Positions 44,571 through 50,016 of a DNA stretch of 64,000 nucleotides are shown here, piece by piece. Positions within the stretch are counted from its first letter, which is position 1. Each line of letters starts with the position of its first letter. The stretch is from Clostridiales bacterium. GTDB lineage: Bacteria; Bacillota; Clostridia; Oscillospirales; CAG-272. A model generated the notes under the pieces. The model was not told the origin of the DNA, ran no database searches, and saw only the letters and a program-made list of their open reading frames with translations. A program made the translations under genes and the position numbers. The stretch is from assembly GCA_012514145.1 (NCBI GenBank), contig JAAZAV010000044.1, positions 18,674-82,673 on the forward strand, read 5' to 3'.

Positions 44571-46649
44571 TTACGGATTAACACCCAGAACCGCACCGAT
44601 CGCGTAGGCGAGATAAGCTCTCTCTGCGCCGGCAGCGGGATCAATTGTGACCGAGAACAGCGCGTTGTTCTCAAGGAAGGAGAGGAATGCTGCCTTGTAG
44701 ATATAAGCCGCCTTAATATTTGCATAGTAAGGAAGCACCTCAAGAGTAGCTTCATCTGTCTTCGGGGAAGCAATCAGTTCATAAGTTCTGAATGCTTTGT
44801 ATAGGATGTATACCATATCGTTGGCGGAAAGCTCGTCCACATCCTTGAAGGATTCGATATCAACATTGATGGCGTTCATGTCAATACCAACGCGGGTAAG
44901 AGCATCGGCAAGGTCGGTATAACTTACGGCACCCTTCGGCTCAAACTTCGCGCCATCCTCGAAAATGCCGAGAGCCACTAGTCTGGAGAGGATGATGCTC
45001 AGGTTACCGTAGCCGGCTACATCGGTGTAGCTTGCGTTATTGCTTACGGCGTAATAGAGAACCGCGATGGGACTGATGCTTGCGCCGGGCTTGACAGCTA
45101 TTACCTTAAGCACCGTGTCGGCGGTAAGAGTAATCGGCCCTTTATACGGTATGGAATATGCGGTCGGGATTGTACCGTCGGTAGTATAGAACAGCGATGT
45201 ACCTGCGGTTGGGCAGCTTAACTGCAGCTTGGTTCCGTAGGGAACGGTTGTTCCGCTGGGAATCGAAGCCGACGGAGTGGGTAGCTTCTCGGTCGCTCCG
45301 TTGTAATAGGTCAGACCGTAGCCGGGGATATAATAGCCGAAGTTGACACCGTTATAGAACGGGTAGCCGACATGCCCATAGTAGCTGCTGAATCCGTACC
45401 CCAGTCCGAGTGAGCCGAAGCCCGTGTAATACGGATAGATATATGAGCCATATGTGGAACCGAAAGGAGTCTTGACCTGTGACGGATGAGTATGCTTGTC
45501 ACAGCCTTCGCAGTAAAGAACCTGGCAGATGGGGCAGAAGGACTTTGGTGCCATGTGCTTCAGACAGTAGTAGGTTACATTGTAGCCGTAATACTTGACG
45601 CACGGGCACTCCGGGCAATGCCAGTAGTCGCACTTCGGACAGAGAACCTTCTGGTTGCCATGATCCTGGCATACATCGGTTACATTGTGTCCGCACTTAG
45701 CGCAATGATAGTCGCCGCAGTATGCGCAGAAGGAAATCTTTTGTGCTTTGTGTATGGGGCAGTAGTAGGTTGTTGTGCCCTTATAGTGAGTACATTCGGG
45801 ACAGTGGTAAGCGCAGCAGCTTGCACAGAACGCTATTTTCGTGGTGGGATGCTTGGCACAGAAACCCATGCCGCAGCCGGGACCGCTTGTACCGCCGCCC
45901 GGGTAGTATACGCCGCCCAGATATACGGGAATGCCCGTACCGGTATAGCCGGGAGCAAAATGGCTGCCTGCTATAACACCGGGAGTCTTTCCGCCGAAGC
46001 AGGGATCAAGCGGACAGTGGGTGGAGGAACAGCCTGCACAGTAGCTGTAAGGCTGACCGTGGGTGGTGCAGTAGGTCTTATAGATGAGTGATCCGCAGCC
46101 GCAAACCGGGCAGTGGGACACGCCGCACTTGTAGCAGTAAACAACCTTGATAAGCGGGTGCTTATAGCAGTTGGTGCCGGGGGTGCTGACTACGGGAGCG
46201 ATATGGCTGCAGCCCGGGCAGTGGTATCCGCCGCAGGAGGTGCAGTTGATTTTGCTGCAGTAATGGATCCCGCAGAAGCTGTCGCCGTAGGGATAGAAAC
46301 TTCCGGAGTAGGGATAATAGCCGCCCGGATAGTAGGGATAATAGCCGCCCGGATAGGGGTAATAGGCGCCGCCAACGAAGCCCGCATAGGGAACGCCGCC
46401 GCCGAAGCCGATTCCGGTAGCCGGAACGCCCGTATCGGGAGTGGGTCTTGAATACCAGGGGTGAGACGGGTCGGTAATCGTGCCGCCGAACGGTGGTTTA
46501 TAAGCATCTTCGGTTTCTCCGATAAACTCAGCTGCTTCTGATGCCGAATGGTCATGATCCCCATCTGCAACCACCGCGCTTACGGTAACGCCGAAAGAGG
46601 AAATTATCATGAGAGCGGTCAGCAGAAGCGCAAGAATTTTAGTCTTCAT
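44571..46649 (-). CDS. Secreted Cys/His-rich protein with seven zinc-finger-like repeats and SLH-like end
   Basis: 692 residues; AAGGAG before the ATG. Residues 1-25 are a Sec signal peptide. Residues 80-125 are rich in Tyr, Gly and Pro (PGGYYPY units). Residues 126-388 contain 40 cysteines in seven units of the form C-x2-H, 6-8 residues, C-x2-C, about 4 residues with His or Tyr, C-x2-C, with an extra His or Cys after most units; the pattern recalls B-box zinc fingers. Residues 391-450 are again Tyr/Gly-rich. Residues 457-535 match a chitobiase-C/Fn3-associated domain (YGTKLQLSCPT, FYTTDGTIPT), and about 540-620 resemble S-layer homology repeats. It is probably exported and wall-associated, binding metal or forming disulphides. 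No known function; own consensus promoter. Confidence 0.75.
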   Translation of the reverse strand: MKTKILALLLTALMIISSFGVTVSAVVADGDHDHSASEAAEFIGETEDAYKPPFGGTITDPSHPWYSRPTPDTGVPATGIGFGGGVPYAGFVGGAYYPYPGGYYPYYPGGYYPYSGSFYPYGDSFCGIHYCSKINCTSCGGYHCPGCSHIAPVVSTPGTNCYKHPLIKVVYCYKCGVSHCPVCGCGSLIYKTYCTTHGQPYSYCAGCSSTHCPLDPCFGGKTPGVIAGSHFAPGYTGTGIPVYLGGVYYPGGGTSGPGCGMGFCAKHPTTKIAFCASCCAYHCPECTHYKGTTTYYCPIHKAQKISFCAYCGDYHCAKCGHNVTDVCQDHGNQKVLCPKCDYWHCPECPCVKYYGYNVTYYCLKHMAPKSFCPICQVLYCEGCDKHTHPSQVKTPFGSTYGSYIYPYYTGFGSLGLGYGFSSYYGHVGYPFYNGVNFGYYIPGYGLTYYNGATEKLPTPSASIPSGTTVPYGTKLQLSCPTAGTSLFYTTDGTIPTAYSIPYKGPITLTADTVLKVIAVKPGASISPIAVLYYAVSNNASYTDVAGYGNLSIILSRLVALGIFEDGAKFEPKGAVSYTDLADALTRVGIDMNAINVDIESFKDVDELSANDMVYILYKAFRTYELIASPKTDEATLEVLPYYANIKAAYIYKAAFLSFLENNALFSVTIDPAAGAERAYLAYAIGAVLGVNP
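45486..46274 (-). repeat. Seven tandem B-box-like Cys/His repeats (protein level)
   Basis: Units at residues 126-150, 161-185, 194-217, 264-288, 297-321, 327-350 and 362-388 of the protein above. All seven keep C-x2-H at the start and two C-x2-C-like pairs after it (unit 3 has a one-residue insertion). A 46-residue Gly/Pro/Tyr insert separates units 3 and 4. Confidence 0.85.
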
Positions 46650-46740
46650 GATTCTTCTCCTTATAACAGGATTTTATCGGTAAACAGCCCCTCCGCTGTG
46701 AGGGATTCGCATCGGGACACAATTACCATTCGTACTTTGG

Positions 46741-46769
46741 ATTATAGCACAAAAGACAATGCTTGTCAA
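46741..46769 (-). promoter_or_regulatory. Consensus promoter of the zinc-repeat protein gene
   Basis: Minus strand: perfect TTGACA (46764-46769), 17 nt, perfect TATAAT (46741-46746). Leader of about 85 nt with a possible short hairpin. Confidence 0.9.
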
Positions 46770-46963
46770 GCAGATTTTTATGTATTATTCAACTCATTTC
46801 ATATTTGGCGGCGGTTTCATACAGGATGGAAAACACATGGAAACAATTGCGAAAATCACCGACAGAACATCGGTTCAATTCCATGGCAGCGGCAGCATCA
46901 GGTAACACCCGGGCCGATATCCGCCACAATTGTGACGGTTCTATGATTTTTGACCGGTCGGTA
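46770..46963. other. Divergent intergenic region without recognisable gene
   Basis: Between the two divergent promoters no gene is recognised. A 22-codon frame at 46837-46905 (plus) has a purine-rich stretch ahead of it but no recognisable content and lies upstream of the plus promoter. Confidence 0.5.
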
Positions 46964-46993
46964 TTGACTGTCTGCGGTGCGGCATGTTATAAT
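46964..46993 (+). promoter_or_regulatory. Promoter of the MutS-like pair
   Basis: TTGACT (46964-46969), 18 nt, perfect TATAAT (46988-46993), about 30 nt ahead of the start. Confidence 0.75.
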
Positions 46994-47029
46994 ATGGTCT
47001 CATAATCAACAACAGAAGGTACCTTCCAG

Positions 47030-48526
47030 ATGAATTGTCCCAGCATACTGTATTCCGGCAAACGTCCGGAAGCAGCTTTAGACAAGCATGTATTCGAAGA
47101 TATAAAACTCAACGCCTTTCTGACCGACGAGGCGATTGAGGCTGTGGCGCCCGTTTGTTCCCGAGAGGACGTTCTGGCACGCCGAGCATTGTTCATCGTT
47201 CTCGGTTCTTCGCCCGAGCTGCGCGGCAGACTCAGCAGACTCTACGACTGCATTATGCGTATCCGCGGGCTTGATGAACTCTACCGCACGGCGCGTTCCG
47301 ACGAAGAGCGGTCGGTTATTTATATTTCTATCGCCCGTGAGACCTCGTCATTCGTATCCAAGGCGGTCTCCCTATGCGAAGGCATGGAGGAGCGCCCGCT
47401 GCTGCTGAAGAATTTTTCCGACGCCTTTGCCGCCACCGCCACATCGCCCGGGTTCATCGCCATGACCGGTGCTCTCGAAACTGTCCTTCCGATACTTGAG
47501 CGTTTCCGCGCTGTGGGCACCCGAATACTCGGCGAACAGCTCACTCTGACCGAGGCTTCCGGAGAGAACTATGTGAGCAGAATCGCCGACTGTGCCGCCC
47601 GTCTCGGGCTGTCGGTAGCCGATGCCCTGCGCCAGGCTAATAGCGGGATAAGCGGCGCTGTTGACGGCGCTACCCGTCTGTCAGCAGAGATAATTGCGGG
47701 GATTGCGCGAAAGAACCCCAGTGTTTTCGGTCAGTTCGCTGAATTTCATAAGATCCATGGCGATATATACGACCGTGCGCTGCTCACATATGCGGGTGAG
47801 ATAGCCTTTTACACCGGTTTTACCGAAATGTTTGATCGGGTAAGTGCTGCCGGGATTCCGCTGACATACTGCGATCTCTGCGACGAACCGCGTATCGACG
47901 CGAAGGAGGTATACGACATCACACTGCTTACCAAGGATGAGAAGAAAATAGTTCCCAACGACGCCTTATTTACACCCGAGGATCCCTTCTGGTATCTCAC
48001 CGGCGCGAACGGCGGCGGAAAGACCACCTATCTGCGCGCGGTGGGTATAGCGGTTGTTATGAACATGCTTGGTGCACCGACAGCCTGTTCAAGCGGCACC
48101 ATGTTCCTGCCCGATCGGGTTTTTACACACTTCCCCAGGGACGATCGCTTTGAAAAAAGCGGACGTTTTTTAGACGAGCATAGACGTGTTGAGAAAATAC
48201 TCGCCGACAAAACGAATCGCTCTGTCGTGCTGCTGAACGAGACCTACTCGGGCACCGATGAGGACACTGCTCAGCGCATGACAGGCTTGCTTGCCGAAAA
48301 GCTGCACGCCTCGTGTACCATCGGCATATATATAACCCATCAGCACGGACTCTCCGAAACCGAAATCCCCTATCTCAATGTCGTGGTTGACCGGGAAGAC
48401 AACAACCGCCGCACATACAAGGTGGAGCAGCGGCGCGGCACCTTCGGCTCCTTCGCTCATGACATACTGCTGCGCTATTCGCTTACCCGCGAGCAGCTTC
48501 GTGAAAGGTTCGGTGACAACCGATGA
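47030..48526 (+). CDS. MutS-like ATPase without mismatch-binding domain (first of a pair)
   Basis: 498 residues. A helical MutS core/lever-like region (about 30-300) precedes a MutS domain V ATPase: Walker A TGANGGGKTT (324-333) and a Walker B-like LLNETYSGT (401-409), then the switch ITHQH (435-439). The usual Walker B Asp is Asn (N403), while the catalytic Glu (E404) is kept. No domain I (mismatch recognition), clamp or Smr nuclease is present. Its last 4 nt overlap the start of the next gene, a paralogue, which suggests a fixed-ratio heterodimer. Processing of unusual DNA or RNA structures is plausible; the role is unknown. Confidence 0.8.
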   Translation: MNCPSILYSGKRPEAALDKHVFEDIKLNAFLTDEAIEAVAPVCSREDVLARRALFIVLGSSPELRGRLSRLYDCIMRIRGLDELYRTARSDEERSVIYISIARETSSFVSKAVSLCEGMEERPLLLKNFSDAFAATATSPGFIAMTGALETVLPILERFRAVGTRILGEQLTLTEASGENYVSRIADCAARLGLSVADALRQANSGISGAVDGATRLSAEIIAGIARKNPSVFGQFAEFHKIHGDIYDRALLTYAGEIAFYTGFTEMFDRVSAAGIPLTYCDLCDEPRIDAKEVYDITLLTKDEKKIVPNDALFTPEDPFWYLTGANGGGKTTYLRAVGIAVVMNMLGAPTACSSGTMFLPDRVFTHFPRDDRFEKSGRFLDEHRRVEKILADKTNRSVVLLNETYSGTDEDTAQRMTGLLAEKLHASCTIGIYITHQHGLSETEIPYLNVVVDREDNNRRTYKVEQRRGTFGSFAHDILLRYSLTREQLRERFGDNR

Positions 48527-50016
48527 AATACAGCCTGCTGTACAGAAACGGCACTCCCGAAACCGAGGAGAGCTTTGATATAACCTATGACCTGTCGGTG
48601 GATCGCCTTGTGAGGCTTACGGTAGCCGATGCCCGTCGTGCGGACTATTTTCTCGCCATACTCATGAAACCGCTGACATCTGTGGAAGATATCGTCTACC
48701 GACAGGAACAGCTCATCGACTATCTGACCATCCCGGGTCTTTATGAGGAGCTGCGGACTGTATTCAACCGCTACGACAAAGTAAAGTCCGACTGGCGTGA
48801 GATGCGCTCTGTGGCATATCCGGGAAGCACCGGCGCCAACAGCCGCGCGCTTGTTGAATATACTTTTGCGTCACTCAAGGTAACCGCCCTGTTCCCCAAA
48901 ACCATTATTTCATATTTCAGCGCCATCGCAGACATCATTAACCGCTATCCGGTAAAGTCGAGCGCGCTGCGCGGAATCGGCAGCTACTGTTCGGAAATGC
49001 TTGAAAACGAATCGCTGAATGAGCTGTCGAATATCGCCGATCTGTTCCGCTATAAGGCTGCCGAGAATTACGAGTTTTCGGTCACCGCCTGTCTTGACGA
49101 TACACTTCGAATGATAAGCTGTGACCTGACCGGTCTTGAGGATGTCACGGCACGTCCGAAGGAGAATGTACTGTTTAAATTCGTCGGCGAACTCATCGGA
49201 AAGAAGAGGGTGAGCGATGATATCATCCTTGAACAGGATGACTCCACGGTTGACAACACCCTCGCCATGCTCAATGAGGCATTGCGTCGAATCGATTCGG
49301 CACTGACCGCGGTAACAGGCGATGTTTACGAAATCTTCTGCGGAATATCGAGCGAGCTTGCCTTCTTTGATGCCGCGCTGGCTCTTATCGAGCGTCTCGA
49401 CGAGGCGGGAATAAAGCGCTGCTTCCCCGTGATGCTGCCCCCTGAAGCCGACCTTTATGAGGCGGAGGAGTTGGCTAACCCCATGCTGCTCTGCGAGGGG
49501 CTGGACGGCAGCACAATACGCACAAATTCGTTTTCAAGTTCTGCGCCGGCGGCCGGGGCACTTATTCACGGCGATAACAATACCGGCAAAACAACATATC
49601 TTCGCTCCATCGGCACCGCGCAGCTTATGGCACAGGCAGGACTTCCGGTCTGCGCCGGTTCGGCGCGCATAAGCATACGCCGAGGCATATATTCTCACTT
49701 CTCATCCGCCGAGGAGGAATTCCGCGCGGGCGACACCGCCGGCCGCTTCGAAGGCGAGGTGCAGTGCGTGGCGAAGATAATCGACGGGCTTGAGAGCCAT
49801 CCTTATTCACTTGTGCTGCTCAACGAGACCTTCCAGACCACCGCTTACAGCGAAGGCGCACAGGGTATGCTTGCCATACTTGAAACATTGCCTGCCGCAA
49901 AGGCGCGCTTCGTCTTTGTCACCCGCATGACAAGACTTGTGGAGCTGGTCACACCCAACCCCACCCTCTTTCCCGTCTCGCATATGACTGCCGGCTTCAA
50001 AGCCGAGCGAGTCTAA
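48523..50016 (+). CDS. MutS-like ATPase without mismatch-binding domain (second of a pair)
   Basis: 497 residues, matching the first partner in length and plan. Walker A is HGDNNTGKTT (349-358) and the Walker B-like motif LLNETFQTT (432-440), again with Asn in place of Asp and Glu kept. The switch reads VTRMTRL near residue 467, so the His usual there is missing, another sign of specialised ATPase use. The N-terminal 300 residues are helical and include a basic DKVKSDWREMR segment. It overlaps the upstream gene by ATGA and has no other neighbour in the unit. Confidence 0.78.
   Translation: MKYSLLYRNGTPETEESFDITYDLSVDRLVRLTVADARRADYFLAILMKPLTSVEDIVYRQEQLIDYLTIPGLYEELRTVFNRYDKVKSDWREMRSVAYPGSTGANSRALVEYTFASLKVTALFPKTIISYFSAIADIINRYPVKSSALRGIGSYCSEMLENESLNELSNIADLFRYKAAENYEFSVTACLDDTLRMISCDLTGLEDVTARPKENVLFKFVGELIGKKRVSDDIILEQDDSTVDNTLAMLNEALRRIDSALTAVTGDVYEIFCGISSELAFFDAALALIERLDEAGIKRCFPVMLPPEADLYEAEELANPMLLCEGLDGSTIRTNSFSSSAPAAGALIHGDNNTGKTTYLRSIGTAQLMAQAGLPVCAGSARISIRRGIYSHFSSAEEEFRAGDTAGRFEGEVQCVAKIIDGLESHPYSLVLLNETFQTTAYSEGAQGMLAILETLPAAKARFVFVTRMTRLVELVTPNPTLFPVSHMTAGFKAERV

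Follow-up and report, generated by a model that had tools for sequence, protein, structure and literature searches.

Why would a bacterium, presumed to be an anaerobe, make a protein, predicted to sit on its surface, that holds 40 cysteines in the order of metal-binding fingers? The question arises from a gene in a 64,000-nucleotide stretch of a Clostridiales genome (assembly GCA_012514145.1, contig JAAZAV010000044.1), here called the window; its parts are compiled in Table 1. The presumption of an anaerobic host leans on one relative from a Clostridiales metagenome-assembled genome. The explanation that we favour, and consider fairly probable, is that of an exported protein in which seven B-box-like units, each braced by about two zinc ions, would be combined with an Fn3-like domain and a triple-SLH anchor into a structural or binding array.

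Of the protein's 41 cysteines, 40 lie within residues 126–388 (45486–46274), exactly in the place and number that an initial annotation of this DNA had given. The array region of 270 residues contains these 40 cysteines and 19 histidines. Its CxxH units begin at residues 126, 161, 194, 264, 297, 327 and 362, and 46 residues separate the third unit from the fourth. The initial annotation mentions neither this gap nor the CHB_HEX domain, the SLH-like tail and the strong promoter described below. The pattern is C-x2-H, x6-7, C-x2-C-x4-C-x2-C, followed by a nearby trailing histidine or cysteine; the trailing ligands and the histidine or tyrosine before the third pair are present as first described. 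The full CxxC-x4-CxxC core is found in six of the seven units, an aspartate replacing the last cysteine in the third. In 20,000 shuffles of the region that kept its composition, 19,874 had no unit, 123 had one and 3 had two, as against the seven near-regular units that had been noticed at the outset and are indeed there.

Predicted export and wall anchor

Export of the protein is predicted. By eye, its N-terminus displays a lysine-rich start, a hydrophobic run and V-S-A at residues 23–25, which agrees with the Sec-type signal peptide annotated before. Hydrophobic N-termini are also seen in eight relatives aligned with the window protein. In the linker behind the signal peptide, a 24-bp tandem repeat (46307–46370) is translated into octapeptides of the GGYYPYYP type. 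A near-copy of the protein, P0001 (98% identical), has one octapeptide fewer; linker length may therefore vary between close strains.

The array is followed by a domain that matches CHB_HEX_C_1 (PF13290; Fn3_assoc, PF13287) with 53.9 bits (E 1.8e-14), over the cut-off of 22 bits. Its structural model matches 8ayr and 6q63 without notable difference, and matches to this part are common across the bacterial order.

For the tail, the prediction is a cell-wall anchor made of three SLH repeats. Its best model appears to have the three-repeat SLH fold. Of the 15 best structural matches, 13 are SLH trimers, among them every match that covers the tail, although these 13 come from two proteins only, Sap (3pyw) and SpaA (6cwn). 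The Pfam SLH family (PF00395, cut-off 20.8 bits) finds no match in the window protein, and its scores in the relatives P0012 and L025, 15.0 and 13.0 bits, stay below the cut-off. Unlike the known trimers, the tail follows a CHB_HEX domain and lacks the arginine in two of three motifs: the first two repeats read SYTD and SAND, and a TRAE-like arginine is left in the third only (Arg677). SpaA, according to a passage of PMC6081394, likewise has one repeat without this arginine.

Might the tail, then, be an SLH trimer that has decayed and lost its hold on the wall polymer, so that the protein is shed? The two missing arginines would fit, as would the first repeat, where GIFED shows the last glycine of GIIxG changed to aspartate (motif roles as given in a passage of PMC6081394). 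The third arginine, however, is invariant in 15 aligned sequences, and the best model of the tail does resemble SLH trimers; decay is somewhat unlikely, if worth keeping in mind. The SLH-like tail, read as an anchor, strengthens the earlier placing of the array outside the cell, which had relied on the signal peptide; the location remains a predicted one. In the same genome, SLH domains over the cut-off are found on five contigs.

Ligands, unit numbers and promoter

Potential ligands were counted in 31 units of 11 proteins, the near-duplicates P0001, P0004, P0005 and P0007 being left out. The units were selected by their second and third pairs, which are therefore given, and aspartate or glutamate at position 6 was counted as a ligand. 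In this set, four ligand pairs with eight potential ligands were found, as in a B-box or RING-like treble clef. The first pair was recognised in 28 units (the 28-unit set used below omits the other three) and the trailing pair in 21; the remaining 10 combine a single trailing ligand with a histidine before ligand 5. Such a histidine directly precedes ligand 5 in 11 units, 10 of which have one trailing histidine or cysteine within 11 residues and one of which has two, whereas all 20 units without it have at least two. For this association, Fisher's test gives p 2.5e-7, or 4.7e-4 with the window protein left out, and 0.018 when collapsed by lineage with the one exception set aside. Both types of unit coexist within single proteins, i.e., the window protein, L028, P0012 and P0045.

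In B-boxes, site I is built from pairs 1 and 3 and site II from pairs 2 and 4, as a passage of PMC5533445 has it. The simplest reading of the swap is that in site II the histidine before ligand 5 may stand in for a member of the trailing pair; each unit would then keep about eight ligands and its two metals. The units would accordingly bind about two zinc ions each, and the molecule at most about 14. With a best pLDDT of 67.6, the predicted structure of units 5–7 is not reliable enough to display this swap or a cross-braced arrangement of two metals.

A search of 395 same-family genomes yields 32 with a match to the window protein at E 1e-6. The match extends to residue 684 or further in ten of them, including its own; in the others it comprises mainly CHB_HEX and ends by residue 615. 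The tenth of these genomes, G153, is represented by pieces only and was left out of the counts. The units are akin to each other across the relatives, their number differs: one in L002, L021 and L022, three in L028, four core units in L025, five in P0012 and six in P0045. L024, L026 and L027 have no fingers at all and retain CHB_HEX, the SLH-like tail and Tyr/Pro-rich linkers. The gene rlmL lies directly downstream in four of seven fetched relatives (L082, L083, L084 and L086; L085, L087 and L088 differ), and in the first three GH38 comes after rlmL, like in the window. The shared neighbourhood implies that the number of units at one chromosomal site varies from one to seven between genera. 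Near their N-termini, the one-unit proteins (L002:937-1400, L021, L022) also show a stretch of beta-rich appearance, ..TVIPKDVTISL..LTVNGKLNINGWLYM.., which is absent from the window protein.

The promoter is conserved, too. Up to 300 bases upstream were searched in nine family genes, the window gene included (229 bases only for L025; for L024 the gene start is uncertain). The score is 12/12 in five and 11/12 in four, the latter including the finger-free L024, L026 and L027, and all have the 17-base spacing and the TG. Single-base shuffles reached these scores in 0–4 of 200 trials per gene. Near-consensus extended promoters are frequent in the window's own genome (2.82 Mb): it contains 61 perfect TTGACA-17-TATAAT sites with TG, one of them in front of the array gene, while the reversed-pattern control yields 0. 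Strong expression is suggested for these genes, finger-free relatives included, which makes it likely that the platform itself is abundant. Pointing away from the promoter of the array gene, an 11/12 promoter with extended TG (46964–46993, plus strand) precedes a divergent MutS-like gene. It belongs to a pair of adjacent, overlapping genes (47030–48526 and 48523–50016, plus strand), each with a MutS domain V.

The chief rival explanation sees the array mainly as a place at the surface where zinc, or some other thiophilic metal, is stored or trapped, rather than as a structural element; this would be of use where sulphide makes zinc scarce. So many cysteines and histidines in 270 residues, the differing unit numbers and a promoter suggesting abundance would all suit a store. 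Yet the potential ligands are kept near eight per unit, as in folded fingers, the similarity to B-boxes is carried by non-ligand letters (see below), and three relatives keep the platform without fingers. Moreover, a search of 46600–47080 for inverted repeats of at least 12 bases, their arms no more than 30 apart, found none, hence no hint of a metal-repressor site. We consider a store unlikely to be the main role; zinc buffering may be a side effect of a structural or binding array.

Likeness to B-box fingers

A B-box-like fold of the units is predicted. The family zf-B_box (PF00643) has a curated gathering cut-off of 24.1 bits. It is passed by the relatives P0012 (29.1 bits) and P0045 (28.4 bits), scanned whole, and by the array fragment of L025 (28.6 bits), whose whole protein stays below it (20.1 bits), as do the remaining finger-bearing relatives (11.6–21.5 bits). 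It is the best zinc-finger family in all ten distinct finger-bearing relatives scanned whole; P0001 has a match to ANCHR-like_BBOX only (E 0.018). In the Protein Data Bank (PDB), a profile of eight units finds TRIM54 first (E 0.026); rubredoxin and ribosomal proteins come at 0.13. The 28-unit profile has TRIM28 (E 0.022) and TRIM2 (E 0.026) on top, with marginal E-values; below them follow zinc proteins, ribosomal ones among them, from E 0.14, and CONSTANS and Midline-1 at 3.6–8.8. When all letters except cysteine and histidine were shuffled (one set), no B-box was left among five matches, the best being the RBR ligase ARIH2 (E 0.18). Alignment by hhalign to three TRIM B-box stretches gave a probability of 90.8, as against 69.1 for the shuffled control; ligand spacing thus accounts for part of the likeness, not for all of it.

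The window protein itself is the less convincing case. Scanned whole, it shows no B-box match even at E 10; its best single unit reaches 18.2 bits for zf-B_box, below the cut-off, and units 1, 2 and 6, scanned singly, match no B-box family. On the fragment of units 5–7, Zn_ribbon_8 ties with ANCHR-like_BBOX (E 0.0027 each), its 18.1 bits being below the curated cut-off of 34.4. The spacing of TRIM B-boxes 1 or 2, as published in the part of PMC5533445 that gives it, is strictly fitted by none of the 28 units; six of them do agree with the type-2 spacing as far as its first six ligands.

With type-2 B-boxes (PF00643; TRIM proteins, plant CONSTANS/BBX) the units share the ligand order CxxH, CxxC/D, CxxC and a trailing histidine pair, the CxxC-x4-CxxC core spacing of the consensus (in a passage of PMC5533445) and, in the 28-unit profile, residue similarity beyond the ligands. 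They differ in that the loop preceding the third ligand, 7–9 residues long in B-boxes, has 6 in 20 of 28 units, that the trailing pair is H-x-H or similar, or else a histidine before ligand 5 plus one histidine or cysteine, and that they form a tandem series within a bacterial protein that is likely exported and in which no RING was found. The earlier preference for a B-box over a zinc ribbon is partly supported: it holds in so far as the likeness exceeds spacing, with two relatives over the cut-off, TRIM proteins best in the PDB and the signal lost on shuffling; it is strained by the sub-threshold window protein, the tie on one fragment and the strict spacing. "B-box-like" is the right label; plain "B-box" goes too far.

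The same data bear on the idea that the units only imitate the B-box order and are knuckles of the zinc-ribbon or rubredoxin kind, perhaps with iron. CPxC-type pairs, the Zn_ribbon_8 tie and the rubredoxin match of the eight-unit profile point that way; with 28 units, however, rubredoxin drops off the list and TRIM B-boxes lead, and none of the ten distinct finger-bearing relatives scanned whole prefers another zinc-finger family. Knuckles are decidedly unlikely.

B-box matches in bacteria are not new as such. A table footnote in PMC2989971 lists a B-box zinc finger as an extra domain of mycobacterial rhomboids, which are membrane proteases, and no array is described in the part of that article concerned. 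A 159-residue open frame from another family of the same order (L048), outside the SLH-type family, has a single zf-B_box over the cut-off.

Table 1. Parts of the array gene and its promoter; positions are those of the window.
Feature	Position	Strand	Remark
Whole gene, 692 aa	44571..46649	-	Single open reading frame; relatives found by search
Signal peptide, residues 1-25	46575..46649	-	By pattern, by eye
Linker, residues 26-122; second half Tyr/Gly/Pro-rich with octapeptide repeats	46284..46574	-	
Finger unit 1, residues 126-149	46203..46274	-	
Finger unit 2, residues 161-185	46095..46169	-	
Finger unit 3, residues 194-217, sixth ligand Asp	45999..46070	-	
Finger unit 4, residues 264-288	45786..45860	-	zf-B_box E 0.0029 (unit alone)
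Finger unit 5, residues 297-321	45687..45761	-	zf-B_box E 0.0059 (unit alone)
Finger unit 6, residues 327-350	45600..45671	-	
Finger unit 7, residues 362-388; 8 potential ligands, B-box order	45486..45566	-	ANCHR-like_BBOX E 3.6e-4 (unit alone)
Tyr/Gly-rich linker, residues 389-457	45279..45485	-	
CHB_HEX_C_1 / Fn3_assoc domain, residues 464-529	45063..45260	-	
Degenerate triple-SLH-like tail (predicted), residues ~540-692; Arg677 in TRAE-like motif of third repeat	44574..45032	-	
Extended -10 promoter TTGACA-17-TATAAT + TG, 12/12 consensus letters	46741..46769	-	91 bases before start codon

A possible role of zinc in place of disulphides

In the 28 units, position 2 is histidine in 23 and cysteine in 5, position 6 is cysteine in 22, glutamate in 5 and aspartate in 1, and the number of cysteines is odd in 15. 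Such swaps and odd numbers fit metal ligands better than disulphides. Obligate anaerobes are reported to tend to keep cysteine out of exported proteins, and working DsbA and VKOR enzymes exist in some Clostridia (both from a passage of PMC12453122). Five other SLH proteins of the genome contain 0, 5, 5, 3 and 6 cysteines (stop-to-stop frames, two of them partial), which counts against a simple rule of no exported cysteine. A disulphide-locked stalk or adhesin, which the initial annotation had also considered, could draw on the predicted location, on those clostridial enzymes and on the three SLH proteins with 5–6 cysteines, but is weakened to the point of being very unlikely by units that have lost a cysteine to histidine, glutamate or aspartate while keeping the others, by the odd numbers, and by a genome (85% complete) in which no DSBA or VKOR match was found, SdbA-type DsbA-like enzymes not having been searched for.

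If the units are zinc fingers, they would resemble small beads, stiffened by metal, on Tyr/Gly/Pro-rich strings. Outside the cell, zinc might stabilise the protein in the way that disulphides do under oxidising conditions. The whole would be a wall-attached display stalk, be it structural or a binding array, that holds or presents something at the surface. As to its origin, we see about an even chance that a lineage of presumed anaerobes made of the B-box finger a wall-anchored, tandem two-zinc unit that replaces disulphides and grew from one to seven copies at one site, with a ligand-swapped version in which a histidine that used to follow the third pair now directly precedes that pair.

Fingers, SLH and CHB_HEX domains are already known kinds; what is new as a variant is their likely exported array in tandem, together with the unit in which a ligand is swapped. 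Judged by titles and the opening of abstracts, the literature matches listed include no comparable exported tandem finger protein. If the favoured explanation is true, metal-stiffened fingers known from inside cells are also worn on a bacterial exterior. B-box-type fingers, called unique to TRIM proteins in a passage of PMC5533445, would then have a place in exported bacterial proteins. An exported protein with 40 cysteines in metal-finger order would be a sign that zinc can stand in for disulphides in stiffening surface proteins where these bonds do not form easily, and the natural series from zero to seven units on one platform would offer a test bed for the role of repeated fingers.
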